From the IMG/VR virus record IMGVR_UViG_3300034012_001395, positions 1 through 26,727 of that record: 26,727 nucleotides of DNA; one strand, given 5' to 3'. Below the pieces are notes generated by a model. That model was not told the DNA's origin. It made no database searches and worked only from the letters and a program-made list of their open reading frames with translations. Source of the DNA: a virus. The position numbers were made by a program, and so were the translations under genes. Positions 4,155 to 26,446 of the stretch are shown here, piece by piece. How positions within the stretch are numbered: the first letter of the stretch is position 1; every line of letters starts with the position of its first letter.

Positions 4155-4179
4155 CCAGCGGACTCCTGTGAGTCACTGG
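4155..4179. terminator. Hairpin between convergent terS and resolvase
   Basis: The inner stem GACTC/GAGTC (4161-4165, 4170-4174) and outer stem CCAG/CTGG (4155-4158, 4176-4179) are separated by small internal loops. It lies where two convergent genes meet and overlaps the resolvase stop codon. There is no T-run, so the terminator function is tentative. Confidence 0.35.
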
Positions 4180-4718
4180 GAGGCATCTAGCGCGCGGTAG
4201 ACCGTCTCGCGGCTGATGCCCATCTGCTTCGCGATCTTCGCCTTGGGGATGCCCAGTGCGACGAGCTCGCGGATCTTCGCTTGGTCGACCGACACGGGCC
4301 GGCCGCGGTACTTGCCCTCGGCCCTGGCCTTGGCAATGCCCTCGCGCTGGCGCTCGAGCATCATCTCGCGCTCGAACTGGGCCACGCTGCCCAGGACGTT
4401 CATCATCAGCTTGCCGGTGGGCGTGCTGGTGTCGAGGTTCATGGCGAGGATCCGCAGTCCGACGCCCTTCTTCTCGAGGCGGCGGGTGATGTCCATCAGG
4501 TCGGCCATTGAGCGGGCCAGGCGGTCAAGCTTGGTGACGACGAACGTATCGCCGGCTCGGGCGAACTCGATCGCAGCCTCGAGCTGCGGCCGCTGCGCCA
4601 TCGACGACAGCTGCTCGCTGAACATCTTCTCGACCCCGGCCTGAGCCAGGTCGCGGTGCTGGGCGTCCAGGCCGGCGTCCTGGTCGGTGGTGCTGGTGCG
4701 GGCGTATCCGATAAGCAT
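4173..4718 (-). CDS. Serine resolvase/invertase, 181 aa
   Basis: Small serine recombinase of the Hin/Tn3-resolvase family, which cuts and rejoins DNA through a 5'-phosphoserine link. The catalytic domain begins MLIGYARTSTTDQ, with the nucleophile at S9 and R7 beside it. KLDRLARS (63-70) carries the active-site arginines, and the long E-helix spans about 101-125. The C-terminal GRPVSVDQ linker leads to a helix-turn-helix at about 153-176. The length is typical of a complete enzyme. I chose the ATG at 4718 because AGGAGAG lies just upstream and the protein then starts as the family does; a longer in-frame reading to 4808 is unlikely. This is the only convincing minus-strand gene here. It could resolve multimers of a plasmid-like phage, invert a segment, or be an inserted cargo gene. 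Confidence 0.92.
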   Translation of the reverse strand: MLIGYARTSTTDQDAGLDAQHRDLAQAGVEKMFSEQLSSMAQRPQLEAAIEFARAGDTFVVTKLDRLARSMADLMDITRRLEKKGVGLRILAMNLDTSTPTGKLMMNVLGSVAQFEREMMLERQREGIAKARAEGKYRGRPVSVDQAKIRELVALGIPKAKIAKQMGISRETVYRALDASQ

Positions 4719-4734
4719 GGGGCTCTCCTGTCTC

Positions 4735-4747
4735 GTTATTCGATAAC
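4735..4747. promoter_or_regulatory. Dyad upstream of the resolvase
   Basis: GTTAT (4735-4739) and ATAAC (4743-4747) form a symmetric dyad with a 3-bp centre, 17-29 bp upstream of the resolvase start. It may be an operator or a recombinase half-site pair. It is short and the function is inferred. Confidence 0.35.
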
Positions 4748-4783
4748 AGGACGATACTGCCGCATAACTCAGAACGCAATTCA

Positions 4784-4843
4784 AATGTGACACTGCCTCA
4801 AGGCTCAAGAGGCCGCCTCGTTTGGGCTTGCCCTAATGTGACA
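4784..4843. repeat. Direct repeat pair, candidate recombination subsites
   Basis: AATGTGACA occurs at 4784-4792 and again at 4835-4843, 51 bp apart, in the non-coding DNA upstream of the resolvase. Resolvase res sites normally lie directly upstream of the gene and contain TGTC-type half-sites; read on the resolvase strand both copies begin TGTCACATT. No inverted partner was found for either copy, so this is only a candidate. Confidence 0.3.
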
Positions 4844-6121: not shown

Positions 6122-6868
6122 ATGCGCTCAGTGCTTGCCGCCGTGCTTATGACCTGCATGTCTTCCGGCCTCGCATTCGCCTGGTCGATCGACGACATGA
6201 ACGCCCAGATTGAGAAGACGAACGTGATCGTTGGCGGGGTGTGTTCCGGCACGATCATTGACGTGAAGGAGCGACTTGTCCTGACCGCCCACCACTGCAT
6301 CGACCAGCAGCTGGTCGAGGAAGAGGTCAAGGAGATCGACGACAAGACGGGCGAAATCAAAACGAAGAAGGTCCAGAAGCGGAAGCCTCTGGAGATCACC
6401 GTCAACCGGATCGTTGACTACGAGATCGTGTCGAGCGTTGACTATCTGGTGAAGATCGTCGGCACTGATACGCAGAACGACATCGCTCTGCTGCAGGTGA
6501 TCGACACGGAGTATGTGCCAGCAGCGGCTGCAAAGCTTGCTCCCGATGGCTTCGTCATTCGCCGCGGCATCCGCGTCTATGCGGTCGGGAACCCAGGGGT
6601 GATCTACGACAACTCGATCACCGAGGGCATCATCTCGGCGCCGCAGAGGACGCTTGAGATTGACGGCAAGAGGTTCAAGTTCTTCCAGCACTCGGCCTCG
6701 ATCATCGGCGGCAATTCTGGCGGTTCGATCCTGAACGAGGATGGCGAGCTCATCGGCACTGTATCTGCCGGCGTGCGTGGTGCTGCCATCGGCTTCGCGG
6801 TGCCGATTTCCTTTTCGAAGGATCTGATCCGCAAGGCTGGTTTCGGCAAGGTTCTTGAGGCCAAGTGA
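6122..6868 (+). CDS. Secreted trypsin-like serine protease, 248 aa
   Basis: Predicted exported S1-fold protease. Residues 1-20 form a signal peptide (Arg near the start, hydrophobic core, Ala-Phe-Ala before the likely cleavage site). The catalytic triad is visible: H58 in LTAHHC, D120 in QNDIALLQ and S199 in GGNSGGS. C41 and C59 sit where chymotrypsin has its C42-C58 disulfide. Between them (about 63-90) is a long charged insertion with many Glu and Lys residues. The ATG has GGAGG 8 nt upstream. The last codons overlap the terminase start (GTGA), coupling the two. Such proteases are not standard packaging proteins. It may act in the host periplasm, be a lysogenic-conversion cargo gene, or process virion proteins; the signal peptide argues against a cytoplasmic prohead protease. 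Confidence 0.88.
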   Translation: MRSVLAAVLMTCMSSGLAFAWSIDDMNAQIEKTNVIVGGVCSGTIIDVKERLVLTAHHCIDQQLVEEEVKEIDDKTGEIKTKKVQKRKPLEITVNRIVDYEIVSSVDYLVKIVGTDTQNDIALLQVIDTEYVPAAAAKLAPDGFVIRRGIRVYAVGNPGVIYDNSITEGIISAPQRTLEIDGKRFKFFQHSASIIGGNSGGSILNEDGELIGTVSAGVRGAAIGFAVPISFSKDLIRKAGFGKVLEAK

Positions 6869-9549
6869 CAGCACAGAACCGCCTGACCCCGCACCTCGAG
6901 AAGATCGCGGGCGTCAAGGACAAGAAGAAGCTCGCCAAGGACATCGCCGCGGCGACGAAGCACCTGCGGTTTGTTCCCTGGCCTGGGCCGCAGACCGACG
7001 CATACCTTTCAAAAGCTGACGAGCTGTTCTATGGTGGCGCTGCCGGAGGAGGTAAGCGCTTGGACATAGATACTGAAATACCAACTATTTCTGGTTGGAC
7101 TAAAATGGGAGACCTACAGCCGGGAGACATGGTCTTCTCGGTTGATGGATCACCGACGCGAGTAACAGCGGTCTCAAAAATTGAGCCCGCTCCTCGCAGT
7201 TTTGAGGTGGTGTTCGACACCGGCGAGGTCATCTACGCTGATGGCGAGCATCTCTGGACGACGATGGACGCTAAGGAGCGGATGGCAGCGCAGCGCCTTA
7301 CGGACGAGTACCGGGAGAAGCGTAAAGCCAACCGGGTGTCACGAGCCGTGGCGAAATCCAAGAAACCCTGGGTGAGCAAGGCGATCACCGCGATCAACCA
7401 GGCTCGTGAGTATGAGTACCTTGAGCCCCCAACCGGCAGCGTTCGGACAACGGACGAAATCCGCAAAACGCTTTTGGTAGGAAAGAGGGTCAATCACTCC
7501 GTCGCGGTCGCTGGTGCGCTTGAGCTTCCGCACGCTCGACTGCCGATTGAGCCATACTTATTGGGGCTTTGGCTGGGAGACGGCACGTCTGCCAGTGGCG
7601 CGATCGGTATGGCAGACTACGACATCGACGAAGTGATTGGCTACACCAACGCTCCGCTTGTTTCGCGAATTGCTTGCGGGAAAGAGCGAAAAACGCCGTA
7701 CATTATCGCCCGCTTTAAGGGGTTGCACACTAAGCTTCGTGAAAGCGGGCTGTTGAGCAACAAGCACATTCCGCTTGGATACTTCCGCGCCTCCCGTGCC
7801 CAACGCCTCGCACTTCTGCAAGGCATCATGGACACGGACGGGCATTGCGACATCCGAGGTCAGTGTGAGCTGACACTCAGCAAACGCAATCTGATTGAAG
7901 ACGTCCACCATTTGGTGTCGTCGCTCGGGATCAAGGCCACTATCACGGAAAAGCCAGTCAAGCGTGGGAACACCGCCTACCGGCTCAAGTTCGTGTCAGC
8001 CGAGCCGGTGTTCCGGCTCAAGCGTAAGTTGGTGCGACAGAAGCTTACGGACCACCGAGAAACGACGCGGAGGCGCTACATCGTGGACGTGAGGCCGTGC
8101 GAGCCGCGCATGATGCGCTGCATCGCGGTTGATCATCCAAGCCGGTTATACCTAGTCGGTCCGACGTGCATCCCAACGCACAACACCGCAATGCTGGTCG
8201 GTCTCGCCGTCCAGGCGCACACCAAGAGCATCATATTCCGTCGGGAGTATTCCCAGATCCGTGGCCTCGAGGACGAGGCAGCAAAGCTTCTGGGTGCGCG
8301 CGACGGTTACAATGCGACGGAGAAGGTCTGGCGCCACTCAGGCGGGCGGGTGCTGGAGTTTGGCTCTGTTCCGCACGAATGGGACCGCGAGAAATATCAG
8401 GGCCGTGCGCACTCATTCATCGGCTTCGATGAGATCACGCACTTCACCCCGTCGATCTACAGGTATCTCATCGGCTGGAACCGCTCCGACGTGAAGGGGG
8501 AGCGGTGCAGGGTCGTGGTGACAGGTAACCCGCCGACGACGGCCGAAGGCCGGTGGGTGGTTGAGTATTGGGCTCCCTGGCTCGACCCGAACCACCCGAA
8601 CCCGGCAAAGCCCGGCGAGCTTCGATGGTTCACCACAATTAAGGGCGAGGACGTCGAGCTCCCCGGTCCAGATCCGATCGAGGTTGATGGCCGCGTCGTT
8701 ACACCTCGAAGCCGCACGTTCATCGCGGCGAAACTCGAGGACAACCCGGCGCTGATGGACAGCGGCTATGCGGCGGTCCTCGAGAGTATGCCCGAGCCCC
8801 TCCGCACCATGATGCGCGAGGGACGGTTTGATCTCGGCCAGCAGGATGACGATTTCCAGGTGATCCCGTCGGCCTGGGTAGACCAGGCGATGTCGAGGTG
8901 GTCGAGGCAGCGGCCTGACGATCCTATGACATCGATGGGCGTGGACGTCGCCCAGGGTGGCGCCGACGAGACGGTGATCTCTCGGCGGCACGGCAGCTGG
9001 TTCGACGAGATCATCGCCAGGAAGGGTATCGACACCAAGGATGGTCCTGCCGTTGCGGGCCTCATCGTGCAGTACATGCGAGACGGCTGCGAGGTGAACA
9101 TCGACACGGGCGGCGGCTGGGGCGGGTCTGCTTTCGACCACCTGAAGCACCAGAACGTGAAGATCCGCGGCGTCCTGGGGTCGAGTGGCTCGAGCGCCAA
9201 GACGAAGGACCGCCAGCTCGGCTTCATCAACAAGCGAGCCGAGACATGGTGGAAGCTTCGCGAGGCACTGGACCCGAACTTTGCCAAGCCGGTGGCGTTG
9301 CCACCAGACCCGCAGCTGCGGGCAGATCTCTGCTCACCGAGATGGAAGCTGGTGCCGCGCGGGATACAGATCGAGTCGAAGGACGACATCAGGAAGCGGC
9401 TCGGCCGATCGCCAGATCGCGGAGACGCTGTCGTTCTCGCGTGGGTGACTGCGTCTGAAAGCAATCAGGTTCAGCCTGCTGGCAGGAACTTCCTGCAGAA
9501 GAAGGCTGTGCTTGGATATTCAAAGATCAAGAAGGTGATCAGAAGATGA
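6865..9549 (+). CDS. terL: Terminase large subunit with in-frame intein
   Basis: The packaging motor and nuclease. The GTG start overlaps the protease stop. The precursor is 894 aa; removing residues 65-440 (intein) leaves 518 aa, a normal size. After splicing, Walker A reads GGAAGGGK joined to T441. Walker B is IGFDE (D522, E523), the coupling motif is VVTGNPP (around 550), and the RNase H-like nuclease has three acidic residues: D694 in MGVDVAQGG, D747 in NIDTGGG and D854 in GDAVVLAW. All are present, so the spliced protein should be active. Splicing is needed for ATPase function because the intein separates the P-loop lysine from its threonine. The next gene starts inside the stop codon (ATGATG). 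Confidence 0.95.
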   Translation: MTAQNRLTPHLEKIAGVKDKKKLAKDIAAATKHLRFVPWPGPQTDAYLSKADELFYGGAAGGGKRLDIDTEIPTISGWTKMGDLQPGDMVFSVDGSPTRVTAVSKIEPAPRSFEVVFDTGEVIYADGEHLWTTMDAKERMAAQRLTDEYREKRKANRVSRAVAKSKKPWVSKAITAINQAREYEYLEPPTGSVRTTDEIRKTLLVGKRVNHSVAVAGALELPHARLPIEPYLLGLWLGDGTSASGAIGMADYDIDEVIGYTNAPLVSRIACGKERKTPYIIARFKGLHTKLRESGLLSNKHIPLGYFRASRAQRLALLQGIMDTDGHCDIRGQCELTLSKRNLIEDVHHLVSSLGIKATITEKPVKRGNTAYRLKFVSAEPVFRLKRKLVRQKLTDHRETTRRRYIVDVRPCEPRMMRCIAVDHPSRLYLVGPTCIPTHNTAMLVGLAVQAHTKSIIFRREYSQIRGLEDEAAKLLGARDGYNATEKVWRHSGGRVLEFGSVPHEWDREKYQGRAHSFIGFDEITHFTPSIYRYLIGWNRSDVKGERCRVVVTGNPPTTAEGRWVVEYWAPWLDPNHPNPAKPGELRWFTTIKGEDVELPGPDPIEVDGRVVTPRSRTFIAAKLEDNPALMDSGYAAVLESMPEPLRTMMREGRFDLGQQDDDFQVIPSAWVDQAMSRWSRQRPDDPMTSMGVDVAQGGADETVISRRHGSWFDEIIARKGIDTKDGPAVAGLIVQYMRDGCEVNIDTGGGWGGSAFDHLKHQNVKIRGVLGSSGSSAKTKDRQLGFINKRAETWWKLREALDPNFAKPVALPPDPQLRADLCSPRWKLVPRGIQIESKDDIRKRLGRSPDRGDAVVLAWVTASESNQVQPAGRNFLQKKAVLGYSKIKKVIRR
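7057..8184 (+). mobile_element. Class 3 (WCT) intein with LAGLIDADG homing endonuclease
   Basis: Residues 65-440 of the terminase precursor (376 aa). It begins RLDIDTEIPTISGW, so the usual N-terminal Cys or Ser is absent, and ends PTHN followed by Thr. The block B region has GEHLW with H129 and W131, block F has RCIAVD with C419, and T438 precedes H439-N440: the W, C and T that define class 3 inteins, in which the block F Cys starts splicing. The two LAGLIDADG helices are LLGLWLGDG (catalytic D239) and LLQGIMDTDG (D325), so the endonuclease looks intact. Insertion is exactly between the P-loop Lys and Thr codons, a known preference of inteins for conserved active sites. Confidence 0.9.
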
Positions 9550-10486: not shown

Positions 10487-11354
10487 TAATACGGCGTTAC
10501 CTAGAGCTTGATTAAAACAAAGAGCGATCCTATGTTTGTGGCGCACAAGGAGCCGCCACATGGGAAAGAAACGATCCGTAGATGTGTCTGACGATGAGAT
10601 CGTTGCCGCTTATGAGCGGCTGCGGTCGCAATACAAGGTTGCAAAAGAGTTGGGCATCGGAGCGACCACGGTTGCTCGTGTTTTGTATTCGCGCGGTGTG
10701 AAGCTGACAGGTCTCTCTGAGTTCCGCGAGAAAATTACGCGGTTCAAGGGCCAAGAGGCTGAAATAAGAGCGATCTACGAAGCAGGGGCTACATACGATC
10801 AACTGCGAAAGCAGTTTGGTGAATGTTCCGATTATGCCCTGAAAAGTGCCATCAAGAGGGCCGGTGGAAATTTGCGGGAAAACCCAGCACCACTGGTGAA
10901 GGATGGTGAGGTCGAGCGCATTAAAGATCTACACAAGAGCGGTCTTGGGCAGGTCCATATCTCTCTCGCGATTGGTAGGTCTCAGTCGTTTGTGAGCCGC
11001 GTTATGCGGAGGAATGGCATAGCACCTCATGATGCGCGTGGTTCCAAGCACTCGATGTGGAAAGGCGGGCGCGTAATCGACAGTAATGGGTACGTCCGGC
11101 TGTGGGTTCCGCAAAAAGATCCGCTCAAATGTATGTCCTTGAATGATGGCTACGTACTTGAGCATCGATATGTGATGGCCAAGCACCTTGGCCGCCCGCT
11201 TGAGCGTCACGAGACCGTCCACCACATCAACGGCAACCGAGAAGACAACCGCCTTGAAAACCTTCAGCTTCGCCACGGCAAGCACGGCAAGGGTGTGCGC
11301 CTCCGTTGCCGGTGCTGTGGCTCAACAGACATTGAGAAAATAGAACTGGATTGA
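10430..11354 (+). mobile_element. Probable HNH homing-endonuclease insertion
   Basis: From just after the expected end of the upstream gene (codon 142) to the HNH stop, the DNA is poorer in G/C at third positions than its surroundings and carries one endonuclease gene. The left boundary is inferred from where family similarity ends; the right boundary is set near the HNH stop, because the next gene begins 9 nt later without its own ribosome binding site. No group I intron core was recognised. Confidence 0.4.
10560..11354 (+). CDS. HNH homing endonuclease, 264 aa
   Basis: The ATG at 10560 has AAGGAG 7 nt upstream; an in-frame TTG at 10536 is less likely. The N-terminal two-thirds contain repeated helix-turn-helix-like modules for DNA recognition: residues about 11-47 (VAKELGIGATTVARVL), 64-103 and 117-154 (HISLAIGRSQSFVSRVM). 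The C-terminal nuclease is an HNH_3 domain: EHRYVMAKHLGRPL (201-214), then HHINGNREDNRLENL (221-235) with the H-N-N pattern, followed by C250, C252 and C253. These enzymes nick or cut a specific site and promote copying of their own gene. The base composition is more A/T-rich than the flanks, as expected for a mobile gene. Confidence 0.88.
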   Translation: MGKKRSVDVSDDEIVAAYERLRSQYKVAKELGIGATTVARVLYSRGVKLTGLSEFREKITRFKGQEAEIRAIYEAGATYDQLRKQFGECSDYALKSAIKRAGGNLRENPAPLVKDGEVERIKDLHKSGLGQVHISLAIGRSQSFVSRVMRRNGIAPHDARGSKHSMWKGGRVIDSNGYVRLWVPQKDPLKCMSLNDGYVLEHRYVMAKHLGRPLERHETVHHINGNREDNRLENLQLRHGKHGKGVRLRCRCCGSTDIEKIELD

Positions 11355-11362
11355 ACAACCGA

Positions 11363-11809
11363 ATGCAGCACGCCTCCGAGTTCCGCCGCTGCCTGCTGGA
11401 AATGGATGTGGTCGGCATCATGCGCCTCTGGCGTCATGTGTCTCCACACCTTCCACAGCCAAGCGAGGCTGAAGCGCTGATCCAGCTGCACATCGCAAGA
11501 TGTGAGGCAAAGCGCTTCCCTCAGAAGGCAAAGGCGTACTCGCAAGCCTGGCTGGCAGAGCAGGGATATCAGAATATCGACGGACAGTGGATCTCTGGTT
11601 TGCCTGTTGCAAAGCCCGTCGCTGAGGCGGTTGGTATTTCGTCGAGATCGGCTGGTGGTTATGTCCTGCCGTTCAATAAGAAGATCATGCAGTTCATGGA
11701 AGACGCGCTTCTCAACGCGATGGCAAAGGGGATCACCGAGCCCCCTGTGCAGAAGGAAGCGATGTTGAGAGCGCGTGACAAGATACGATTTAGGGCGAGG
11801 GTCGCATGA
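11363..11809 (+). CDS. Conserved-type phage protein, 148 aa
   Basis: I chose the ATG at 11363; a TTG at 11351 overlapping the HNH stop would add four residues. The start MQHASEFRRCLLEMDVVGI and the following LWRHVSPHLPQP are typical of a phage protein that I have seen described only as hypothetical. The middle, rich in Ala and Arg, reads as helices (SEAEALIQLHIARCEA), and YSQAWLAEQGY follows. No membrane segment or catalytic motif is visible. The 3' end overlaps the tail fibre gene (ATGA), suggesting co-translation and possibly a virion or fibre-assembly role. Its native ribosome binding site may have been lost to the HNH insertion. Confidence 0.7.
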   Translation: MQHASEFRRCLLEMDVVGIMRLWRHVSPHLPQPSEAEALIQLHIARCEAKRFPQKAKAYSQAWLAEQGYQNIDGQWISGLPVAKPVAEAVGISSRSAGGYVLPFNKKIMQFMEDALLNAMAKGITEPPVQKEAMLRARDKIRFRARVA

Positions 11810-13983
11810 CGATTTCAGTCAAGCACAAGTTCACAAGTGCGAAGTCTGATAGCGCAGACACGTCTCTCGTGCGCCCGTCAAACTGGAACGACGAGCATAA
11901 CCTGACGCTGGCGTCCGACACCATCCTTGGACGAGACACGGCAGGAACTGGTGCTGTCGAAGAGATAACCGTTTCCGGTGGCCTGGAGTTCACCGGGTCT
12001 GGCGGTATTCAAAGATCTGCTCTGACTGGTGACGTGACGGCCTCTGCTGGCTCTGGAACAACAACGATTGCCAATGACGCTGTCACCTATGCGAAGATGC
12101 AGAACGCCTCGACGAGCGATGTCGTCCTTGGAAGGGCATCCGCAGGCACAGGCAACATTGAGGAAATCTCCTGCACAGCTGCTGGCAGGGCATTGCTTGA
12201 CGATGCTGACGCTGCTGCACAGAGAACGACACTTGGTGCAGCAGCTTCTGGAGCCATCACTGGCTCTGGCTTAACGCAAACAACGAGCCGAATCCTCGGC
12301 CGTACTACTGCAAGCACCGGCGCAATTGAGGAGATCTCTGTCGGAACCGGATTGACGCTGTCGGGTGGCTCTATATCGGTGACGACAAATACATACCAAC
12401 CTCTTGATGCTGACCTAACAGCAATTGCAGCTCTTTCTCCGGCTCTTGACAATATCATTGTCGGAAATGGTACGGCATGGATTGTTGAATCCGGGGCTAC
12501 GGCTCGTTCATCACTTGGTGCCGCTGGCACGGGTGTCACGAACACATTCACCGCCAACCAGATCGTATCAGTCACCGACAACACGAATGCCGCCCTCCGC
12601 ATCACCCAGCTTGGCACGGGAAACGCGCTCCTCGTTGAAGATTCGACCAACCCAGATGCGACGCCAACCGTTGTAACTGCTGATGGTACTATAGTTGTTG
12701 GGCATACAGCCGCCCTTAACACCGACAATTACGCCGGGACGCAGATAACACCGAAGGTTCAGGTCCAAGGAATAAACAACGAAACGTCCACATTAAGCGC
12801 GACTGCATGGGCAGCCAGCACTGGTGGGCCGCAAATTGCTCTTGGCAAGTCAAGGTCCGCTACGGTCGGAACAAACACAATTGTACAGAGCGGAGATACT
12901 CTTGGGGCCGTAACCTTCGCTGGTGACGACGGCACTGCGATAATCATCGGTGCTTCAATAGTTGGCGAGTCTGATGGCACTCCCGGCACAAACGATATGC
13001 CGGGTCGCCTCGTGTTCAGCACGACAGCGGATGGTGCCCAGACAGTAACGGAACGACTGCGAATTTCCAGCACTGGTGCATTTGGTATCTCTGGTGCGAA
13101 CTACGGTTCGGCAAATCAGGTTCTTATTTCTGGCGGATCTGCCGCGGCCCCTTCTTGGAGCAGCGGCACGTTCAGCGGAACAAGCTCTGGAACAAACACC
13201 GGAGACCAAAACATTTTCCAGACGATTGCTGTCTCTGGCCAGTCGAACGTGGTTGCAGATAGCACTGCTGATACCCTTACGCTGGCTGCTGGCACCAATA
13301 TCGCAATCACGACAAATGCTACAACTGACACCATTACAATTGCTACATCCGGGCTTGGCACTGCTGCGATAGAAGGCACCGGAACGTCTGGGGCAACAAT
13401 CCCTTTCTGTAACGGAACAAACACTTGGGCAAACACTCAAACCTTTAATGCTTCATCTGCCATAAGAGTATCTGGCGGAACCGCTTCTACAACTGGAAGA
13501 GTTATCATTGGTGATGTTTCTGCTGGTAACAATGCCGCGACCGTTGGGATTGAAACCATAACAACATCGACAGCAGCACGTTTCCATATGTCTTTCAAAA
13601 ATGGAAACGGTATTGTCGGATCAATCAGCACGAACGCCTCGGCAACCGCATTCAATACAAGCTCAGACTACCGTCTGAAAGAAAATATCCAGCCGATCAG
13701 CAATGCATCTCACAGGGTCTCACTACTGAACCCTGTGAGGTTCAACTGGATTTCCGATCCTGGTGGGCCAGTTGTCGATGGATTCATAGCTCACGAAGTC
13801 CAGTCCGTTGTGCCGGAGGCGATCACCGGGCAAAAAGATGAAGTTAACCCAGAAGACGGAAAGCCATTATTTCAGGGCATAGATCAGTCAAAGTTGGTTC
13901 CGCTTCTTGCCGCCGCATTGAAAGAAGCCATTGGTGAAATAGCCAATCTCAAGGCAAGGGTTTCCGCCTTGGAGGGCGTATAG
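11806..13983 (+). CDS. Tail fibre/spike with S74 self-cleaving chaperone domain, 725 aa
   Basis: Host-recognition fibre. The N-terminal 190 residues contain three copies of an ILGR.TA.TGA.EEI motif (about 40-54, 108-121, 163-178), typical of phage fibre shafts. The middle is Thr/Ser/Gly-rich beta-structure. The C-terminus is an intramolecular chaperone (Peptidase_S74): SSDYRLKENI (619-628), then NPVRFNW, GFIAHEVQSVVPEAI, a KLVPLLAAALKEAI helix and a coiled-coil end. By comparison with endosialidase, the Ser-Lys pair would be S620 and K625 and cleavage would fall before S620, releasing about 106 residues after trimerisation. The start overlaps the previous stop. The region is less G/C-rich than the terminase genes. 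Confidence 0.88.
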   Translation: MTISVKHKFTSAKSDSADTSLVRPSNWNDEHNLTLASDTILGRDTAGTGAVEEITVSGGLEFTGSGGIQRSALTGDVTASAGSGTTTIANDAVTYAKMQNASTSDVVLGRASAGTGNIEEISCTAAGRALLDDADAAAQRTTLGAAASGAITGSGLTQTTSRILGRTTASTGAIEEISVGTGLTLSGGSISVTTNTYQPLDADLTAIAALSPALDNIIVGNGTAWIVESGATARSSLGAAGTGVTNTFTANQIVSVTDNTNAALRITQLGTGNALLVEDSTNPDATPTVVTADGTIVVGHTAALNTDNYAGTQITPKVQVQGINNETSTLSATAWAASTGGPQIALGKSRSATVGTNTIVQSGDTLGAVTFAGDDGTAIIIGASIVGESDGTPGTNDMPGRLVFSTTADGAQTVTERLRISSTGAFGISGANYGSANQVLISGGSAAAPSWSSGTFSGTSSGTNTGDQNIFQTIAVSGQSNVVADSTADTLTLAAGTNIAITTNATTDTITIATSGLGTAAIEGTGTSGATIPFCNGTNTWANTQTFNASSAIRVSGGTASTTGRVIIGDVSAGNNAATVGIETITTSTAARFHMSFKNGNGIVGSISTNASATAFNTSSDYRLKENIQPISNASHRVSLLNPVRFNWISDPGGPVVDGFIAHEVQSVVPEAITGQKDEVNPEDGKPLFQGIDQSKLVPLLAAALKEAIGEIANLKARVSALEGV

Positions 13984-14056: not shown

Positions 14057-15760
14057 ATGGCTTTCGACACGGTGTTCGACAGCGTAGCATTTGACCTGTC
14101 CGCGTTTCAGTGGCCCTATTCAGGGTCGGCAAGTTCGGCAGGATCAAGCACTGCATCGGCTGGCGGCGCTCTCGTAAGGGCCGCAGACGGATCAGCAACT
14201 GCCTCTGCTTCTGCAACGGCCTATGGAGCATCAAATAGAGCAGCAGCCGGATCGGCGGCTGGCTCTGGGTCTGGATCTGCGAGCGGTCGCGGTATCAAGC
14301 CGTTCGCCCTCATCGTTGATGCGTCCGGTTCTGCGAGTGCTGTCGGCGCGTCGACGTTTGCTGGCGCTGCGTCAGCAGCAGGCATTGTGTCTGGCGGGAT
14401 TGCCGGTTCGTCTACGGCTGCGGCATCCGCATCGGGATCCGGCGCCGCAAGCGGCCTGGCGTCTGGCGCCTCAATATTTGCCGGATCTGCCGGCGCGTCG
14501 GGAAGCGCCGGTGCCCAGGCGGGTGGGGCCAGCACAGCAGCGGCGCTATCAAGTTCTGCTGGCTCTGGGTCTGGAGCGTGCGCTGCGCAGTTTGTTCGGG
14601 TGTCGTCGTTCACGTCGCAAGCCTCTGGAGCTGGTGCGGCGTCGGCTTTGGCAATATTCGCTGGCAGCGGTTCCGCTCTTGGTACGAGTTCATCAGGCTT
14701 CGCAGACAGCGGTATAACGTATGTTGAGTTCGCCTATGCCAATGCCGTGGGTGTCGGAGACCTGACGGCGGTTGGAATGATTGTTCTGCCTGCCAACGCA
14801 AATGCGCCTGGCACCGGAGCTTCAGTGGTGCTTGGCCTGCAGCGTGGCCCGGTCTTGTCAATAGCAGCAGCCTCTGGCTCTGGCTCAGTGTCTGGTGTTG
14901 GGGCGTTCAACTATGGTGTTGCCAGTGCATCTGGCAGTGTGGGTGCTGCTGCAGTAGGTGAGTCGCGTTTCAACGCAGCCGCCACAGTATATGGATCAGT
15001 AAGTGCGATCTCCCTCGGCACCACTGCGGCTGAAGGCGTCAGGGTTGTTACAGAGTTTGGTGTAGCCAATTCTGAGTCAATCGAAGACACAGAGGTTGAA
15101 GGCGATGCCAATGTCGACGCCTTCGGTTATGGTTTTGGCGTAGGTGACCAAATTGTCTTTTCGTCTGGCAAGGCACAGGCGATCGCGAAGTCAACCATAT
15201 TCCAGTCTGATACCTTTGATACAGCTTCCTTTGGATCAAATGCAGAGACCGCACTTGGACAAGGCGTCGCGAAGCAGTTCACGGATGCAGCAGTAGCAGC
15301 TTCTGGCGTTGGCGGTGCATCTGCCGTGTTCCGAGCGTTTGATGGCGGGGTCGCCGCTGGCATTGGTGCATCTTCTGTTATCGGCACTCGTGTCACGCAT
15401 TCTTCTGGATCTGCCGCAGGTGCTGGCAATCTTCTGGCCGTCAGGTCTGGAACGGTGCAGTCATCCGGCACGGCTCGCGCTCTTGGTGGCGCGGCGGCGG
15501 TTGGTGCTGTCGTATCGGATATCAGGGCCGTAGCAGTCGGAACAGGATCAGCGTTTGGTCGGTGGGGAACGTCATCAGCCGTTGGTTCTGCATTCTCGAG
15601 CGGGGATTGCTCCGGTGTGTCTCGAACTGACGTCGGTGTCGCGAGGGCTTCCAACAGCCTCGTGTTCAACTTTGGGCAGTCAAACGGGCGTGGCAGCGGC
15701 ATCGTCAGCGTGAATGGCATCGTCTCAGGATCTGGCAGCGCACTGGCCAGGGCAGCTTAA
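14057..15760 (+). CDS. Ala/Gly/Ser-rich repetitive virion protein, 567 aa
   Basis: AAGGTG lies upstream of the ATG at 14057. The first 20 residues alternate Phe with Asp/Ser (FDTVFDSVAFDLSAF). A related aromatic block, FQSDTFDTASF, recurs at 382-392, so the protein may be two fused modules. The rest is low-complexity, dominated by Ala, Gly and Ser with short SGSASA-type repeats and very few charged or large residues. Similar Gly/Ala-rich proteins occur beside fibre genes in phages, where they may form extended or polyglycine-like shafts. I see no catalytic motif and no signal peptide. It sits between the fibre and the portal, and stops 15 nt before the portal start. Function is inferred only as a probable fibre or appendage component. 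Confidence 0.75.
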   Translation: MAFDTVFDSVAFDLSAFQWPYSGSASSAGSSTASAGGALVRAADGSATASASATAYGASNRAAAGSAAGSGSGSASGRGIKPFALIVDASGSASAVGASTFAGAASAAGIVSGGIAGSSTAAASASGSGAASGLASGASIFAGSAGASGSAGAQAGGASTAAALSSSAGSGSGACAAQFVRVSSFTSQASGAGAASALAIFAGSGSALGTSSSGFADSGITYVEFAYANAVGVGDLTAVGMIVLPANANAPGTGASVVLGLQRGPVLSIAAASGSGSVSGVGAFNYGVASASGSVGAAAVGESRFNAAATVYGSVSAISLGTTAAEGVRVVTEFGVANSESIEDTEVEGDANVDAFGYGFGVGDQIVFSSGKAQAIAKSTIFQSDTFDTASFGSNAETALGQGVAKQFTDAAVAASGVGGASAVFRAFDGGVAAGIGASSVIGTRVTHSSGSAAGAGNLLAVRSGTVQSSGTARALGGAAAVGAVVSDIRAVAVGTGSAFGRWGTSSAVGSAFSSGDCSGVSRTDVGVARASNSLVFNFGQSNGRGSGIVSVNGIVSGSGSALARAA

Positions 15761-15775: not shown

Positions 15776-17416
15776 ATGGATAACAACGGCAAAGAGCTCA
15801 TGAAGCGCTGCAAGCGACTTTTTGAGCGCAAGTCTACGTTTGACAGTCTTTGCCAGGAGATCGCGTCAAATTTCTATTCCGCGCGTGCTGACTTCACGAC
15901 GCAGATCAATCTTGGGGATGAGTTTGCCTCTCACCAGGTTGATAGCTATCCCGAGCTTGTCAGGCGTGATCTCGCCAACGCATTTGCCTCCATGTTGCGC
16001 CCCTCAAACCAGCAGTGGTTTGAGGCTCATGTCGACGAGGAGCTCGAGGCCGACAAGACTGTGCGCTCGTATCTGGAGTACATGACGAAGGTCACATCGC
16101 GCATTCTTTACGACCCGTCCACGAATATGAGGCGCGCTTGCACCGAGGCCGATAATGATCTCGCTGCATTCGGAAATGCCGTGGTCTCCATCGTCGACAA
16201 TAAGGACCGCAGCGGCATCAACATGCGAGCCTGGCATCTTCGGGACTGCGCGTGGGCAGAAGATGAGCTTGGTCAAGTGTTCAGTCTGTATCGGAAGCAG
16301 AAGATCACCCTGGGCAATCTGGCTCGCCAGTTTGGCGAGGCCAAGGTTCCGGCCAAGTGGAAGTCGAAGCTCGATACGGATCAGATGCACGAGATCGAGA
16401 TCTATCACTGCGCGATGAGGAAGGATCTGTACGAGCCTTACGGATCGAAGAAGACATTCGGCGGTATGCCGTTTGTGTCCGTCTGGTTCACTCCAGAAGG
16501 CGAAATTCTCGCGGAGATCCCAGAGCCAGTGTTCCCTTATGTGGTCCCGCGGTGGTCAAAGGTATCGACGTCGCCATATGCCTTTTCGCCGGCGACGATC
16601 ATCGCCCTGCCGAACGCCCGGCTGATCCAGAGAATGATGCTCACCCTCATCGAGGCTGCAGAGAAGACTGTTGACCCGCCTCTGGTTGCCACCCACGAGG
16701 CAATCAAATCCGAGGTGGACCTGACGGCTGGCGGTATCACATGGGTGGACCGTGAGTATGACGAGCGCCTCGGAGAAGCCATTAGGCCCCTGCAGCTTGG
16801 CCGGAATGTGTCGATCGGCGTCGATCTGCTGGAGCAGCAGCGGAGGATGCTTGCTGAGGCATTCTATCTTTCGAAGATCAACCTCCCGCAGGCCCGTGAG
16901 AAGACTGCCTATGAGACTGCGAGGCTGGTCGAGGAGTACGTCAGAAACGCTCTCCCCCTCTTCGAGCCTCTTGAGGACGAGTACAATTCTACAATACTTG
17001 ATGCCGTGATGGTGCGCGGACTGCGCCTCGGAGCCTATGGGGCTCCTGACATGATCCCCCAACCACTCCGAGGTCAGAACGTGAAGTTCACCTTCCAGAA
17101 CCCGCTGCGTGAGGCGATGGCGCGCAAGAAGGTCATTGCCTTCAACGACAGCGTCCAGCTGATCGCTGCGGCCTCTCAGATCGACCAGTCTGCTTTGGCT
17201 GAGGTGAGCGTCAGCACCATGCTTCAGGACGCTATGGTCGGCGCTGGCGCCCCAGCCAGGTGGATGAAATCGGACGAGGAGAAGGCCGCACAGGCCGAGG
17301 CAATGAACCAGCAAGCCCAGATGGCTCAGATGATCAACATGGTCGGTTCCGGTGCGAATGCTGCGAAGACGATCGCCGAAGCCGAGGCAAAGGCAAATGA
17401 GGTGGTTTCGCAGTGA
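15776..17416 (+). CDS. Portal (head-to-tail connector) protein, T7-like, 546 aa
   Basis: Forms the dodecameric DNA gate at the head vertex. The sequence matches the podoviral head-tail connector family (PF12236 type): an N-terminal helical region with LMKRCKRLFERKSTFD, the LANAFASMLRPSNQQWF segment (around 65-82), VPRWSKVSTSPYAFSPATIIALP (near 260-280), and the helix with LIEAAEKTVDPPLVA. The C-terminal 60 residues form a Met/Gln/Ala-rich helix, the usual barrel end. The length is typical (T7 gp8 is 536 aa). A GGATG-type ribosome binding site precedes the start. The stop overlaps the next gene's GTG start. Confidence 0.9.
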   Translation: MDNNGKELMKRCKRLFERKSTFDSLCQEIASNFYSARADFTTQINLGDEFASHQVDSYPELVRRDLANAFASMLRPSNQQWFEAHVDEELEADKTVRSYLEYMTKVTSRILYDPSTNMRRACTEADNDLAAFGNAVVSIVDNKDRSGINMRAWHLRDCAWAEDELGQVFSLYRKQKITLGNLARQFGEAKVPAKWKSKLDTDQMHEIEIYHCAMRKDLYEPYGSKKTFGGMPFVSVWFTPEGEILAEIPEPVFPYVVPRWSKVSTSPYAFSPATIIALPNARLIQRMMLTLIEAAEKTVDPPLVATHEAIKSEVDLTAGGITWVDREYDERLGEAIRPLQLGRNVSIGVDLLEQQRRMLAEAFYLSKINLPQAREKTAYETARLVEEYVRNALPLFEPLEDEYNSTILDAVMVRGLRLGAYGAPDMIPQPLRGQNVKFTFQNPLREAMARKKVIAFNDSVQLIAAASQIDQSALAEVSVSTMLQDAMVGAGAPARWMKSDEEKAAQAEAMNQQAQMAQMINMVGSGANAAKTIAEAEAKANEVVSQ

Positions 17417-19362: not shown

Positions 19363-19401
19363 AAGGGCTCGTGGACCGCAAGGCACCCCACGAGCCCTTT
19401 T
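19363..19401 (+). terminator. Rho-independent terminator or leader hairpin before the capsid gene
   Basis: The 12-bp perfect stem AAGGGCTCGTGG (19363-19374) and CCACGAGCCCTT (19388-19399) has a 13-nt loop and is followed by TTCTGTTT. It has the form of an intrinsic terminator. It lies 63 bp before the major capsid start, so the capsid gene probably has its own transcription start or depends on antitermination. Confidence 0.7.
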
Positions 19402-19463
19402 CTGTTTGGGCACCCGAGAACCGAAGCCTCCCCAACAACCTCATCAGAATACGGAGAACTGCA

Positions 19464-20291
19464 ATGGCTGTGCCAATGCAAACTCTGTATCGCGACGAGT
19501 TCGTGGCGAGCTTCGAAGTTCGCCAGTCGTATCTCCGCGATACAGTAACGTCCGAGGCAATGGTCAAGGGTAATTCCGCCATCTTCCTCGTCACCGGCCA
19601 GGCCGACACCATGAAGGAACGTGGCGTCGATGGTCTTATCCCCGCCGCCAACGAGACCGACACCCAGGTGACGATCTCGCTGAAGGAAATGCACCACCGG
19701 GCTACCCAGACCGGCTGGGACATTTTCACTGGCCAGTCCGACCGCCGCCGCATCCTTCAGGAGCGCGGCATGAAGGCTGCGAACAAGGAGATCGATCAGG
19801 CCATCCTGACGGCTCTCAACGCGACGACCACCAACTACAACTCTGGTTCGGCGATCACGCTGACCTATGGCAAGCTGGTGGATGTTCTCTCGGATCTCTA
19901 CGAGAACGAGGTGGACAATGACGGCATGATCACCTGCGTCTGGTCTCCCAAGACCTACGCTCGGATCCTGACCTTCGCCCAGGCGACCTCCATTGACTAC
20001 GTCAACGCGAAGCCGCTCGTCGAGGGTCCGCAGCCGTTCCGCTTCCTTGGTGCGCAGCATATCATGCACCCCAAGGTTCCGGGCGTCGGCACCGCAACCG
20101 CGAAGTGCTATGTTTACCACAAGTCCGCAATCGGTCACGCCATCGACACCGCTGGCATCAAGACCGACATCGGCTTCAACGGTGAGCATGACTATTCGTA
20201 TGCCCGCCACTCCGTTTATCACGGCGCCAAGATCCTCCAGAACTCTGGTGTGATCGAGGTCACCGTCGATGACACGGCGGCATTCTCGTAA
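19464..20291 (+). CDS. Major capsid protein, 275 aa
   Basis: Builds the icosahedral shell. Position after the scaffold and composition identify it: an N-terminal helix (TLYRDEFVASFEVRQSYLRD), a SEAMVKGNSAIFLVTGQ segment (30-46), the loop with RGVDGLIPAANETDTQVTISL, then an ATQTGWDIFTGQSDRR helix and AANKEIDQAILTAL, as in podoviral coat proteins. The C-terminal beta region has CYVYHKSAIGHAI and DYSYARHSVYHGAKIL. I chose the ATG at 19464 with GGAG (19453-19456) upstream; longer in-frame readings start within the terminator hairpin and are not credible. It is somewhat shorter than T7 gp10A (345 aa). Third codon positions are strongly G/C, as expected for a highly expressed gene. Confidence 0.88.
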   Translation: MAVPMQTLYRDEFVASFEVRQSYLRDTVTSEAMVKGNSAIFLVTGQADTMKERGVDGLIPAANETDTQVTISLKEMHHRATQTGWDIFTGQSDRRRILQERGMKAANKEIDQAILTALNATTTNYNSGSAITLTYGKLVDVLSDLYENEVDNDGMITCVWSPKTYARILTFAQATSIDYVNAKPLVEGPQPFRFLGAQHIMHPKVPGVGTATAKCYVYHKSAIGHAIDTAGIKTDIGFNGEHDYSYARHSVYHGAKILQNSGVIEVTVDDTAAFS

Positions 20292-21115: not shown

Positions 21116-23497
21116 ATGGCAACGAAGCTCGAGATTTACAACGAAGCCCTTCGCCTTGTCGGAGATCTCCGTCTGGTCGCCACGACTGACCAGGTCGAGG
21201 CACGATACGCGCTTGATGACGCCTGGAGCAGGGCCGTTCTGTTCTGCGGCGCACAGGCTGACTGGCCATTCGCAATGGCCGACATTCAGCCACTCTTGGA
21301 TTCAGACTCATCGATCGGGTACAACAAGAGCTATACGTTCGATCCAAGTGTTTGGTTGAGAACGGTTGCCGTCTCACTGGATGAGAATTTCGCCGTTCAG
21401 GCGCACTACATGCAGACGGCAACGAAGTTCCGTTTCAACACCTCTGAAACCAGAGCTTATTTCAGGTACATCTCAAAGAACCTGCTGCAGGACACCGATG
21501 TGCCGAATTGGCCTGAGATGTTCTGCAGTGTGGTCGCACACAGGCTGGCCTTCGACGTTTGCGAGCGCCTGACACAAGACCCCCAGAAGGCCCAGGGGCT
21601 GTATCAGCTGTTCGTTGAGGTTCTCGGCCTGGCAAAGTCTCAGCACGCGCCCGAAAGGGGCGGCATGATGATTTCGCCTGCACAGTGGGCGGCAAAGGTT
21701 CACAACGATACGGTCGCGGCGATCTGGGAAGAGGCCATCAGGTTGATGGGAACCGGCGACCCGAAGATCGCTATGGTTCAGCGCCCGGTTGACGCCAAGC
21801 CCGTGCATGAGGTCTTGGAGATGGCCTGGCGCGGCGTCGTGCTATACTGCCTGAATGAGTTCGGCTGGAACTTTGCTACCAAGACCTCACTGCTGAGCAC
21901 GTCTGCCGGCACAGGCACAGGGTACACGCACAGCTTCTCCAAGCCTGCAGACTGGCTGAGGACCGTGGACGTAGCCGCCGGGACTGACGCTGACTTCAAG
22001 GCTCCCATCGACTATCGTGACGAGGGTGGTCGCTGGTATGTAAATTCGTCCTCCATCTATGTTCGATATGTATCCACCGAATACGCTCAAGATGCTGACG
22101 CGACTGCGTGGCCAGACAACTTCAAGCGGTTGCTTGCATGCCGGTTGGCCTATGAGTGTGTCGATCTTGTCACTGGGATACCAGACAAGAGAGCAGCCCT
22201 TGAGAAGGAATATGGAGGGCAGGCCGCTCGAGCGATTTCGATCGATGCAGCAGCCAATAGCCTGGCGATCCCAAAGAGGCGAAACGCGACAGTTGGATCC
22301 ATCTGGTCTGAGTCCCTGCGGCTCATGGGCTATGTGGAGGGCTCCAAGGGTACTGCTGACAAAGACGATGAGGCTGATCGCGTCTACCGTGTTCTTGACG
22401 CTGCGTGGTCCCGCGTTGTCAAGTTTTGCCTTACAGAGCACTACTGGAATTTCGCCACAACCACGGTCAGCATCCTAAGTTCTGGCGCCCCATCCCTTGG
22501 TTACAGCTATGGATTTGTGAAGCCATCAGATTGGCTCCGCACGATCGGCGTGGCCAGTGATGCGGCATTTTCTTCATCCATTGAATATCGAGATCAGGGC
22601 GGCCGCTTCTTTGCAAACGTCACGCCAATCTATGTTCGATACATATCTTCAAACTCGTCCCTCGATGCTTCTGCCACGTCATGGCCAGAGCCTTTCGTTC
22701 GCGCCGTCGCTTATCGACTGGCGTATGAATGCTCTGATGTTGTGACCGGAGATCCTGCTCGTCGAGCGGCTCTTCTTGAGGAGTACAAGTCGGCGCTTGA
22801 AAGTGCTGCGAGGAAGGACGCTGCCGACCAGAGTCTCATCATCCCGAAGCGCCGCAATTCAACAATCACGGCAATCTGGAAAGAGGCGTCCCGGCTGATG
22901 GGATACCCGGAAACAAGGAAGGCTGCGCCAGAGACGGAGATTGGGATTGAGAGCGTCTATCAGATCTTCGATGACGCTTGGCAACGTGTCGTTAGGTTCT
23001 GCCTGACTGAGGGGTTGTGGAACTTTGCCACCAAGACATCTCAGATCACGCAATCTGGTGTCCCAATACCTGGCTGGCAGTATGCTTTCAACAAGCCAAG
23101 CGGCTGGCTGCGGACGATTGCTGTCTCGAACTCCAGCGAGTTCTTCGCAGAGGCGAGGTATCACGACGAAGGCGGCAAGCTATATTCCAACGACAGCACC
23201 CTCTACATTCGCTTCATGTCTTCTGACTATGGGGCGGATGCTGAGGCGCCGAACTGGCCTGAGATGTTCTGCCGCGTTCTGGCCTACAGACTGGCCTACG
23301 AGTGCTCTGATGCAGTCACTGGCGATCCTAATCGATCTGCGAAACTGATGGCTGACTACAAGAGCATGCTCGCGCAGGCAAAGGGCAAGGATGCAATGGA
23401 TCAGGCGCAGATGTTCCCGCGGACATCCAACTGGCTTGGCGCAATGCGGGGCGTGAGCAATCGCCGCTACGACCGCGGCTCTTTGAGTGGGTTCTGA
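21116..23497 (+). CDS. Tail adaptor protein made of four tandem gp11-like (tail tubular A) units, 793 aa
   Basis: T7 gp11 (tail tubular protein A, about 196 aa) forms the ring between portal and nozzle. This protein is four such units in one chain, starting at residues 4, 203, 396 and 587 (spacing 199, 193 and 191). Each unit begins with an E(A/S).RL(M/V)G helix and contains a (D/E).AW.R.V.(F/Y)C segment, a WLRT(V/I).V motif, a Y(I/V)R(Y/F)(I/V/M)S strand and an A.RLA(Y/F) helix. Units 2-4 share I(P)KRRN-type linkers, NFAT.T and Y(R/H)D(E/Q)GG(R/K), and are closer to each other than to unit 1. AAGGG precedes the ATG. The single open frame has no stop or frameshift. Confidence 0.88.
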   Translation: MATKLEIYNEALRLVGDLRLVATTDQVEARYALDDAWSRAVLFCGAQADWPFAMADIQPLLDSDSSIGYNKSYTFDPSVWLRTVAVSLDENFAVQAHYMQTATKFRFNTSETRAYFRYISKNLLQDTDVPNWPEMFCSVVAHRLAFDVCERLTQDPQKAQGLYQLFVEVLGLAKSQHAPERGGMMISPAQWAAKVHNDTVAAIWEEAIRLMGTGDPKIAMVQRPVDAKPVHEVLEMAWRGVVLYCLNEFGWNFATKTSLLSTSAGTGTGYTHSFSKPADWLRTVDVAAGTDADFKAPIDYRDEGGRWYVNSSSIYVRYVSTEYAQDADATAWPDNFKRLLACRLAYECVDLVTGIPDKRAALEKEYGGQAARAISIDAAANSLAIPKRRNATVGSIWSESLRLMGYVEGSKGTADKDDEADRVYRVLDAAWSRVVKFCLTEHYWNFATTTVSILSSGAPSLGYSYGFVKPSDWLRTIGVASDAAFSSSIEYRDQGGRFFANVTPIYVRYISSNSSLDASATSWPEPFVRAVAYRLAYECSDVVTGDPARRAALLEEYKSALESAARKDAADQSLIIPKRRNSTITAIWKEASRLMGYPETRKAAPETEIGIESVYQIFDDAWQRVVRFCLTEGLWNFATKTSQITQSGVPIPGWQYAFNKPSGWLRTIAVSNSSEFFAEARYHDEGGKLYSNDSTLYIRFMSSDYGADAEAPNWPEMFCRVLAYRLAYECSDAVTGDPNRSAKLMADYKSMLAQAKGKDAMDQAQMFPRTSNWLGAMRGVSNRRYDRGSLSGF

Positions 23498-23500: not shown

Positions 23501-26446
23501 ATGCCACGATCACAAGTACCGTTCTATTCTCTCAATGCCGGCGAAGTGGATCCAGACGCCCTCGGGCGGATCGACCTCGAGAAGCTGCGCATCGCCGGCG
23601 AGAGCGTCGTGAATTTCACGCCAACGGTGCTTGGCGGCCTCCACATGCGGCCAGGCACGAAGTTCGTGGGCGAAACGATTTCGGGCAATGCAGCAACTCT
23701 TCTCATCCCGCACATATACAACTCATCAAAGGTAAGCCTGATCGAGATCAGTAGTCAGGCAATTCGCGTCCGAAACTCTGACGCGCTGGTGACTTTCGAA
23801 GACTACAGCACGACTATAAACAATCCGTATTTCACATCTGCCATCGTCACGAATGTTGACAGCGGTTGGATCAACGCTTCGTCAAATAAGCAGAACAGGG
23901 CAACAACGGTTTCCACAACAGCCGGTGGAAGGCTTTTGCTAAGTAGTACGAAATACTCTTTCGCCATAGCGAGACAGCGCGTGACTGTAGCTTCTGCAGA
24001 CAGGCAAAAGCTACATACACTGAAGATTATTGTTCTGAAGGGGCCAATCACATTTCGAGTTGGTACAGTATCCGGCAAGAATGACGTGGTGTCCGACCAG
24101 CGGCTTGACAATGGAACGCATTTCATAACTTTCAAGCCGAACAATGCGAGTGTGGTGATCGAGCTCGAGGCGAATGACAGTGGTCATTGCGACAAGCGGG
24201 TAGATGAATGCTCATTCGTAAAAAATAAAATCATGGAGCTCCCGAGCCCATACACCAATGCCAATCTCAAGGACATCAGGTATGCGCAATCTGGGTCTGT
24301 GATTTTCATAGCCTGTAGAGGTGTGCCTCCGTACATGATCGAAAGGCGGGGCGACAATTCGTGGGGGCTGGTTGAATACAGAACAATCAATGGACCTTAC
24401 ATGCCGTACTCCGGCAGGAAGGTGCGCCTGAAGGTATCAAGGTCAATTGGTAACCCTACCACGATGGAGTCTGACCAGCCCTTCTTCAATGAAAAAATGG
24501 TCGGATCACTATTCGAAATTACGACCGATGGACAGAGGCGAACGGTTATATTCACTGACAAGAACCAGGCGTCTGAGCCAATCCGGGTGAGCGGGCGCGG
24601 CGGCATGGAAGGTCGAGCAAGGAGATACACTTTTACCACTACTTATTCGTCTGCGTTCACTGACACATCCACAGGTTCGTCTGTTTCAGTTCCAGCTGCC
24701 AGTGGCAACATACAGGTACAGTTCTCCTACGGACAGCCTGATGCCTGGGTGAACGGCTACGGCGAGCAAACGGCTGGCGGTATAACTCCTGTCACGACAA
24801 GCGGTACGTTCGTAGTCAACGATGCCCGCCTAAAGTCTAATACCAGCCCGGCATATACCCTTGAGTCGAATGACAATTCTGTTGTTTATCACAGGCTCCT
24901 ACGAACAAGTGGAAACACAAACGGAACGATTGCAGCAACGATGGATTATGCCGGTGGCGCTCAGACTGGTGTCGTGAGGTTGTATGAGGTCATTGACAGC
25001 AAGACCGCAACCGTTGAAGTCCTTAAGGAAATCGGAGCAGCAGACACCTTTACAGATGACTGGAGAGAGGGTGCCTGGAGCGCCAATCAGTCGTGGCCAA
25101 CGGCCGTGGCGATACATGACGGAAGGCTGTGGTGGGGTGGTCTCGACAAGGTATACGGATCTGTGTCTGATGATTACTTCAACTTCGACCCAAGGATCGA
25201 GGGTGATAGCGGCCCAATCATACGATCTATTGCGACTGGTCCTGTCGAGAACATATCTTGGATCCTCGGACTTCAGCGCCTTGTGGTCGGGACTGCATCG
25301 GCAGAGGCATCGATCAGATCCAGCTCATTCGATGAGCCACTCACCCCGTCACAGTTCACTGTTCGGAATGCGTCGACGATGGGTTGCGCATCAATTCAGG
25401 CGTTACAGCTCGACAGCACAGGCATCTTCGTCCAGAAGAACTTATTCAAGATCTATGAGTTTCTCTACGACGTCAACGTCAACGACTACACGTCGAGAGA
25501 CCTGACCAGGCTCAACAAGTTTGTCTGTAAGCCAGGCGTAATAGATATGGCAGGACAGAGACAGCCAGACACGAGGGTGTGGTTCGTCAAGAGAGACGGG
25601 TCTATGGCTATGCTCTTGTATGAACGGCAGGACGATGTGGTTGGCTGGTCACGCTTTGAAACGGATGGCGAGATCGAGTCTGTCTGCACTTTGCCATCAA
25701 ATGGTTCTAGCCCCAATGTTTCATCTCGTGATGATGACGTATACTTGGTTGTCAAGAGGGTCATCACCATAAATGGTCAGGCGACAGAAAAGAGATACAT
25801 TGAAAAGCTGACGTCCTCTTCTGAAACCGAGGATGGAGACGGATCGTATCTTGTCGATTGTTCTGTGAAATACACGCCCGACGTAAGCTCGACGAAGACA
25901 GTCCCAGGATTGCAGCATCTCAGGGGAAAGCAAGTTGTCGCAAAGAATGGATCGTCTGATCCAGGAAAGCTGTATACGGTCAGCAACAACGGAACAATAA
26001 CGCTCGACAATTTCATCGGGACGGGGCAGTCGATCAAGTCAGTTGTTGTTGGTCTTCCTTATACCGCCAAGTTCAAGTCAGTGAAGCTGGCCTATGGCTC
26101 CGCGCAGGGCACGGCTCTCGGGCAGAAGAAGAGGGTTGACCACCTCGGGATTGTTGCAAACAACACGGCCCCTGAAGGCGTTTCGATCGGCCGTAATTTC
26201 AGCGACATGACGAAACTGTCTAGCCTGATCCGCGGGAAGCCGCTGTCGGACGGCCAGATCATCGAACACTACGACTATGATGCCACCAGTTTCGGAGGCG
26301 CATGGGACACTGACAGCAGGGTCTGCATTAAGTGCGCGTCGCCATACCCCGCACATATCATTGGCCTCGTCATCAAGATGAATACCAATGACAAAGCCTA
26401 TGCGTGGCAGCGACGTCAGAGTGACACCACGCCTGATGAGGCTTGA
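23501..26446 (+). CDS. Tail nozzle protein, T7 gp12-like (tail tubular B), 981 aa
   Basis: Forms the distal tail nozzle below the gp11-like adaptor. The N-terminus is typical of the family: PFYSLNAGEVDPDALGRIDLEK, then FTPTVLGGLHMRPGTKFVGE. Further family-like stretches are RYAQSGSVIFIACRGVPPYMI (around 261-281), SWPTAVAIHDGRLWWGG (around 531-547), and LGLQRLVVGTASAEASI. The C-terminal part has an IYEFLYDVNVNDYTSRDLTRL segment and beta-rich repeats. It is longer than T7 gp12 (794 aa), with an added insertion around residues 95-200 that contains Thr/Ser-rich strands and a VELEANDSGHC segment. It starts 3 nt after the gp11-like stop, and the next gene starts inside its end. Confidence 0.88.
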   Translation: MPRSQVPFYSLNAGEVDPDALGRIDLEKLRIAGESVVNFTPTVLGGLHMRPGTKFVGETISGNAATLLIPHIYNSSKVSLIEISSQAIRVRNSDALVTFEDYSTTINNPYFTSAIVTNVDSGWINASSNKQNRATTVSTTAGGRLLLSSTKYSFAIARQRVTVASADRQKLHTLKIIVLKGPITFRVGTVSGKNDVVSDQRLDNGTHFITFKPNNASVVIELEANDSGHCDKRVDECSFVKNKIMELPSPYTNANLKDIRYAQSGSVIFIACRGVPPYMIERRGDNSWGLVEYRTINGPYMPYSGRKVRLKVSRSIGNPTTMESDQPFFNEKMVGSLFEITTDGQRRTVIFTDKNQASEPIRVSGRGGMEGRARRYTFTTTYSSAFTDTSTGSSVSVPAASGNIQVQFSYGQPDAWVNGYGEQTAGGITPVTTSGTFVVNDARLKSNTSPAYTLESNDNSVVYHRLLRTSGNTNGTIAATMDYAGGAQTGVVRLYEVIDSKTATVEVLKEIGAADTFTDDWREGAWSANQSWPTAVAIHDGRLWWGGLDKVYGSVSDDYFNFDPRIEGDSGPIIRSIATGPVENISWILGLQRLVVGTASAEASIRSSSFDEPLTPSQFTVRNASTMGCASIQALQLDSTGIFVQKNLFKIYEFLYDVNVNDYTSRDLTRLNKFVCKPGVIDMAGQRQPDTRVWFVKRDGSMAMLLYERQDDVVGWSRFETDGEIESVCTLPSNGSSPNVSSRDDDVYLVVKRVITINGQATEKRYIEKLTSSSETEDGDGSYLVDCSVKYTPDVSSTKTVPGLQHLRGKQVVAKNGSSDPGKLYTVSNNGTITLDNFIGTGQSIKSVVVGLPYTAKFKSVKLAYGSAQGTALGQKKRVDHLGIVANNTAPEGVSIGRNFSDMTKLSSLIRGKPLSDGQIIEHYDYDATSFGGAWDTDSRVCIKCASPYPAHIIGLVIKMNTNDKAYAWQRRQSDTTPDEA

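Follow-up and report, generated by a model that had tools for sequence, protein, structure and literature searches.

Adaptor rings are conventionally treated as fixed 12-unit joints, and the known podovirus adaptors have one unit per chain. In T7 the ring is built of 12 gp11 units, which contact the nozzle through their alpha1-alpha2 loop and the portal through their C-terminal embracing helix (PMC6702177); the same placement of loop on nozzle and C-terminal helix on portal recurs in the published structures (PMC6702177, PMC10575957, PMC9509320). The tail barrel of phicrAss001, seen by cryo-EM, consists of five stacked dodecameric rings (R1-R5), between portal and nozzle, of paralogous ring proteins, adaptor-fold copies that are encoded by separate genes (PMC10172136).

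Here we describe an adaptor gene in positions 1 to 26,727 of IMG/VR virus record IMGVR_UViG_3300034012_001395, a stretch of 26,727 nucleotides that we call the window. The fold of each of its units and the order of the surrounding genes are those of the podovirus dodecameric adaptors (T7 gp11 / KP32 tail tubular protein A; Carin-1 connector 8ck1; PHROG 394), but a single chain contains four units, and the nozzle-facing and portal-facing features are split between the first and the last. The four-unit fused adaptor is well supported as a real protein, and it is a variant of the known gp11-type podovirus adaptor.

A tandem array of four adaptor units

The 793-residue open reading frame at 21116..23497 (+ strand, ATG start) is confirmed by sequence profiles, AlphaFold and Foldseek to comprise four tandem, complete adaptors of the T7 gp11 type. 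All of its parts lie on the + strand: unit 1, residues 1-199 (21116..21712); unit 2, residues 200-392 (21713..22291); unit 3, residues 393-583 (22292..22864); and unit 4, residues 584-793 (22865..23494), which bears a C-terminal tail. Pairwise identity among the units is 28-49%, with BLAST E values from 3e-21 (units 1 and 2) to 6e-70 (units 3 and 4) and bit scores of 74-199, as against at most ~20 for shuffled sequence. Taken singly, every unit has a match to PHROG 394 ('tail protein', 190 positions), with E=1e-23, 3e-24, 1e-26 and 3e-29 for units 1 to 4, and this family has four separate matches in the virus record. An adaptor-family HMM that includes these units aligns with each of them along almost its full length, at E 2e-41 to 8e-48, and profile A2, likewise built with these units included, finds PDB 8ck1 at E=1.6e-42. 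In a Pfam search the four-unit protein stayed under the family cut-off of SU10_adaptor. An earlier note, made from the letters of this stretch, had claimed four related gp11-like units in one polypeptide, unit 1 being the most diverged. BLAST between units, PHROG 394, the HMM, AlphaFold and Foldseek bear out the former claim and sequence comparison the latter, and the profile search gives a gp11-type match for all four units rather than one such fold with unrelated repeats.

The protein was modelled with AlphaFold2 as two tandem pairs, units 1-2 and 3-4, at pLDDT 84 and 83. Every unit has alpha1, alpha2, fibre-dock strands, alpha3 and alpha4, so that the adaptor fold, an alpha-helix bundle with a fibre-dock beta domain, is present in all four. 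An additional C-terminal helix follows unit 4 only (residues 773-781; helix 381-389 of the unit 3-4 model); this embracing helix and the tail (23432..23494) resemble the tail of a single-unit adaptor from the sister phage L345 and are the putative portal-contact part. The best PDB matches returned by Foldseek are the Carin-1 connector 8ck1, LME-1 9efk, phiM1, T7 gp11 (7box/6r21) and KP32 5mu4, with further matches to the P-SCSP1u and SU10 adaptors and to phicrAss001 ring-fold chains. The linkers are short, about 11-21 residues: the first (residues 177-197; 21644..21706) is mostly of low confidence with a short helix, the second spans about residues 383-393 (22262..22294), and the third runs for 13 residues from alpha4 to the next alpha1 (residues 573-585; 22832..22870). 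Because the pTM is only 0.50-0.52, these models do not predict how the units are placed relative to one another.

The array recurs in its entirety in a twin contig, IMGVR_UViG_3300045999_000811, which is 99.4% identical to the window at the nucleotide level with zero gaps over 6,778 bases; within the adaptor gene the two differ at 7 synonymous and 2 non-synonymous positions. The gap-free array in this second contig makes it unlikely that the assembly is collapsed or chimeric. Searching INPHARED and IMG/VR with the whole protein returned the twin contig and one weak match, and nothing else.

Genomic surroundings

The gene lies where an adaptor is expected, directly ahead of the nozzle gene (23501..26446, +; 981 residues, tail tubular protein B type, PHROG 376, E=8e-143) and downstream of a single 546-residue portal gene (15776..17416, +; Head-tail_con, PF12236, E=6e-60) and the major capsid protein gene (19371..20291, +; Phage_capsid_2 / PHROG 3437). 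The resulting order of portal, scaffold, capsid protein, adaptor and nozzle matches that of T7-like and epsilon15-like podoviruses. At its end the window is overlapped by contig L009, which runs on into further genes.

Elsewhere in the window, the terminase large subunit frame (6865-9549) is split by an insert with LAGLIDADG homing-endonuclease matches that begins beside a GGAAGGGK motif and ends in HN-T; from its sequence this insert looks like an intein. A trypsin-like serine protease gene (6122-6868) stands immediately before the terminase. An HNH endonuclease gene with helix-turn-helix domains (10536-11354) is likely a homing endonuclease, and a serine resolvase/invertase gene (4173-4808, - strand) is oriented against the structural genes. 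A tail-fibre-like protein (11806-13983) ends in an endosialidase-type chaperone domain (Peptidase_S74), and a 567-residue Ala/Ser/Gly-rich protein with no Pfam match (14057-15760) is encoded immediately before the portal gene.

One, two and three units among relatives

We surveyed relatives by nozzle-guided scans and an adaptor-guided scan, with loci scored by an iterated adaptor HMM; the nozzle queries were alignments of subsets, all 13 nozzles together being too diverse. Single units form the majority of the surveyed nozzle loci, and a single-unit adaptor precedes the nozzle in individually examined isolates and contigs with related nozzles (e.g. HTVC010P, phiV10, BcepC6B, CP2). Two-unit proteins occur in about 50 contigs of one main clade (the L105 clade) and, as a separate form, in L175. 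Three-unit proteins are of three kinds: L313/L314 (one protein in two contigs), L361, and L218, a prophage in the genome of the cultured isolate Albimonas donghaensis DSM 17890. Within the surveyed nozzle neighbourhoods four units are found in the window and its twin only, and neither the nozzle-guided nor the adaptor-guided scans returned a protein with five or more. Whole-genome searches gave matches in 11/397 genomes for the family around Albimonas, in 60/397 for the order, and in 57/385 for the class, where sampling was centred on a Xanthobacteraceae genome; Albimonas was the sole multi-unit case at all three levels. A scan of genome contigs with adaptor profile A1 found no match.

Several apparent multi-unit loci were rejected on inspection. 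Rhizobiales frames of 335-620 residues comprise a single unit and a non-coding upstream frame, and the double hits in L019, L051, L163 and L201 come from adaptors of one unit in which tens of residues are inserted close to the fibre dock. In L339 (3914-5012) two overlapping open reading frames (178 and 206 residues) in different frames encode one adaptor unit each, either an unfused pair or a frameshift. Our search of open-access papers found no report of a fused adaptor; the earlier statement that no described phage has this arrangement thus holds for the papers covered, but two-unit and three-unit relatives do exist in sequence databases. Like the window, the L105 clade, L313/L314, L361 and L218 carry the tandem fusion beside the nozzle gene, with fewer units.

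The closest relative found, the sister phage L345 (IMGVR_UViG_3300044972_001237), has the same gene order and is 86% identical to the window in the capsid protein and 47% in the nozzle, yet its adaptor is a single unit of 209 residues. Because this sister has one unit, the expansion in the window lineage is comparatively recent. In unit trees, units 2-4 of the window cluster together (SH-aLRT 97-98; 100/97 in a careful tree), and constraining all four window units to one clade was not rejected (p-AU 0.36). The units of L218 also cluster together, and the two units of L175 are sisters. In the main two-unit clade all first units fall in one group and all second units in another, and L313 arose within this clade, from a first-type unit. 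By these groupings the two-unit, three-unit and four-unit fusions are largely separate events, about five to six in number. In L313 (4004-5734) the middle unit has the body of the first type but the loop of the second, as unequal crossing-over would give, a case suggesting that loop types can be copied between units in this way.

Polarity of the fused units

We scored the alpha1-loop segment and the tail of each unit against 189 single-unit adaptors. Unit 1 of the window, the most diverged overall, falls inside the normal range of these singles for the alpha1-loop segment (score 99.8, with 44% of singles lower), and its alpha1 and alpha1-alpha2 loop are of the single-unit type. From these scores and the contact made by the T7 gp11 loop (PMC6702177), its alpha1-alpha2 loop (residues 16-31; 21161..21208) is the probable nozzle-contact segment. 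Units 2-4 score 37-39, under all 189 singles. The first unit likewise has the segment most like singles in the two-unit clade, L313, L175, L218 and L361, with the qualification that in L218 and L175 even the first unit ranks around the 5th percentile of singles or lower. The later units of every fusion have a diverged nozzle-facing segment or none, and the portal-embracing tail is kept in the last unit only. The effect is specific to the loop region: in the two-unit clade, as in the window, later units preserve the fibre dock better than the first unit does.

Written by loop type, the window reads A-B-B-B and L313 A-B-B. Units 2 and 3 of L361 are without alpha1 and its loop altogether, and alpha4, at the portal end, leads directly into the next alpha2, at the nozzle end, a junction that suits head-to-tail stacking. 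In none of the units is a canonical nozzle-facing segment combined with a canonical portal-facing tail. Counting initial duplications only, 5/5 cases point in the same direction, with a chance of about 0.03 in a test devised after the sequences were seen. Fusion itself could, as a side effect, have removed the tails at internal junctions.

Arrangement of the chains

We consider it probable that the four-unit protein fuses a stack of adaptor rings, its chains spanning from nozzle to portal. Each chain would lie along the tail axis: the hexameric nozzle would carry unit 1, units 2 and 3 would form middle storeys, and unit 4 would clamp the portal via its embracing tail. With twelve such chains placed side by side, four 12-unit rings would be stacked, and the neck would exceed that of the single-unit sister phage by roughly the height of three rings. 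At about 4.6 nm per ring, the value given by 23 nm for the five rings of phicrAss001, the four-ring barrel would be about 18 nm high; provided that 12 chains are present, there would be more than one adaptor-fold unit per portal subunit. Chains of this kind, which would pass through stacked 12-unit rings on the way from nozzle to portal, fit the polarity of first and last units. We propose, by analogy, that the window adaptor is a covalent counterpart of the five-ring barrel of phicrAss001, with the difference that the phicrAss001 rings come from separate paralogous genes and their stack is seen, whereas the window units belong to a single fused gene and their stack is an inference.

The earlier note had instead proposed that three four-unit chains close one 12-unit ring on the portal, with specialised positions, an arrangement in which two-unit relatives would require six chains and three-unit relatives four. 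The T7 ring does have 12 units, published contacts (PMC6702177) suggest that alpha1 begins and alpha4 ends on the portal side, where a short linker could join neighbours, and linkers of about 11-21 residues could equally reach a lateral neighbour; the embracing loop of SU10, moreover, touches neighbouring portal subunits (PMC9509320), and the two loop types of two-unit proteins could match T7's two alternating nozzle contacts. That 2, 3 and 4 all divide 12 might seem to favour it, and the earlier note so argued from four, but we dropped this point: the numbers are small, and every unit number seen elsewhere divides 12 as well. Lateral chains would place every unit on the nozzle, and a 6-fold nozzle would favour A-B-A-B loops with unit 3 like unit 1, yet unit 1 resembles the singles and units 2, 3 and 4 all differ from it. 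Three-unit chains would be out of phase with that nozzle, the embracing tail is gone from internal units, and units 2 and 3 of L361 have no nozzle-facing segment at all. We therefore regard the lateral ring as unlikely.

Decoration, the alternative offered by the same note, in which the ring takes one unit per chain from 12 chains while the rest project, for example as extra fibre docks, would account for the well-preserved fibre-dock region of units 2-4. It needs one unit with both ends intact, however, and the nozzle-contact and portal-contact parts never occur in the same unit; the linkers, too, are short, and we judge this reading distinctly improbable. Post-translational cleavage of a polyprotein to single adaptors seems more improbable still: the protease gene ahead of the terminase could be invoked for it, but junction sequences vary between units and among fusions, no cleavage motif was found, and the internal units are without tails. 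That the array is an assembly artefact or a neutral, non-functional expansion is scarcely credible. Its rarity, with no further four-unit protein in the survey, would fit such an origin, but the frame is open, the second contig carries the array with mostly synonymous differences, and several independent fusions exist elsewhere, one of them in the genome of a cultured isolate. Stacked chains are thus the favoured reading.

Implications for podovirus necks

More generally, the length of the podovirus neck may be set by the number of fused units, in repeatedly evolved covalent barrels of two, three and four storeys whose first unit is specialised for the nozzle and whose last is specialised for the portal, a generalisation that we hold to be about evenly balanced. 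The pairing of a four-unit with a one-unit phage whose capsid proteins are 86% identical, together with a cultured strain carrying a three-unit prophage, makes the idea testable. If it is true, recurrent fusion into two-unit, three-unit and four-unit chains would be a simple genetic route to longer short tails.
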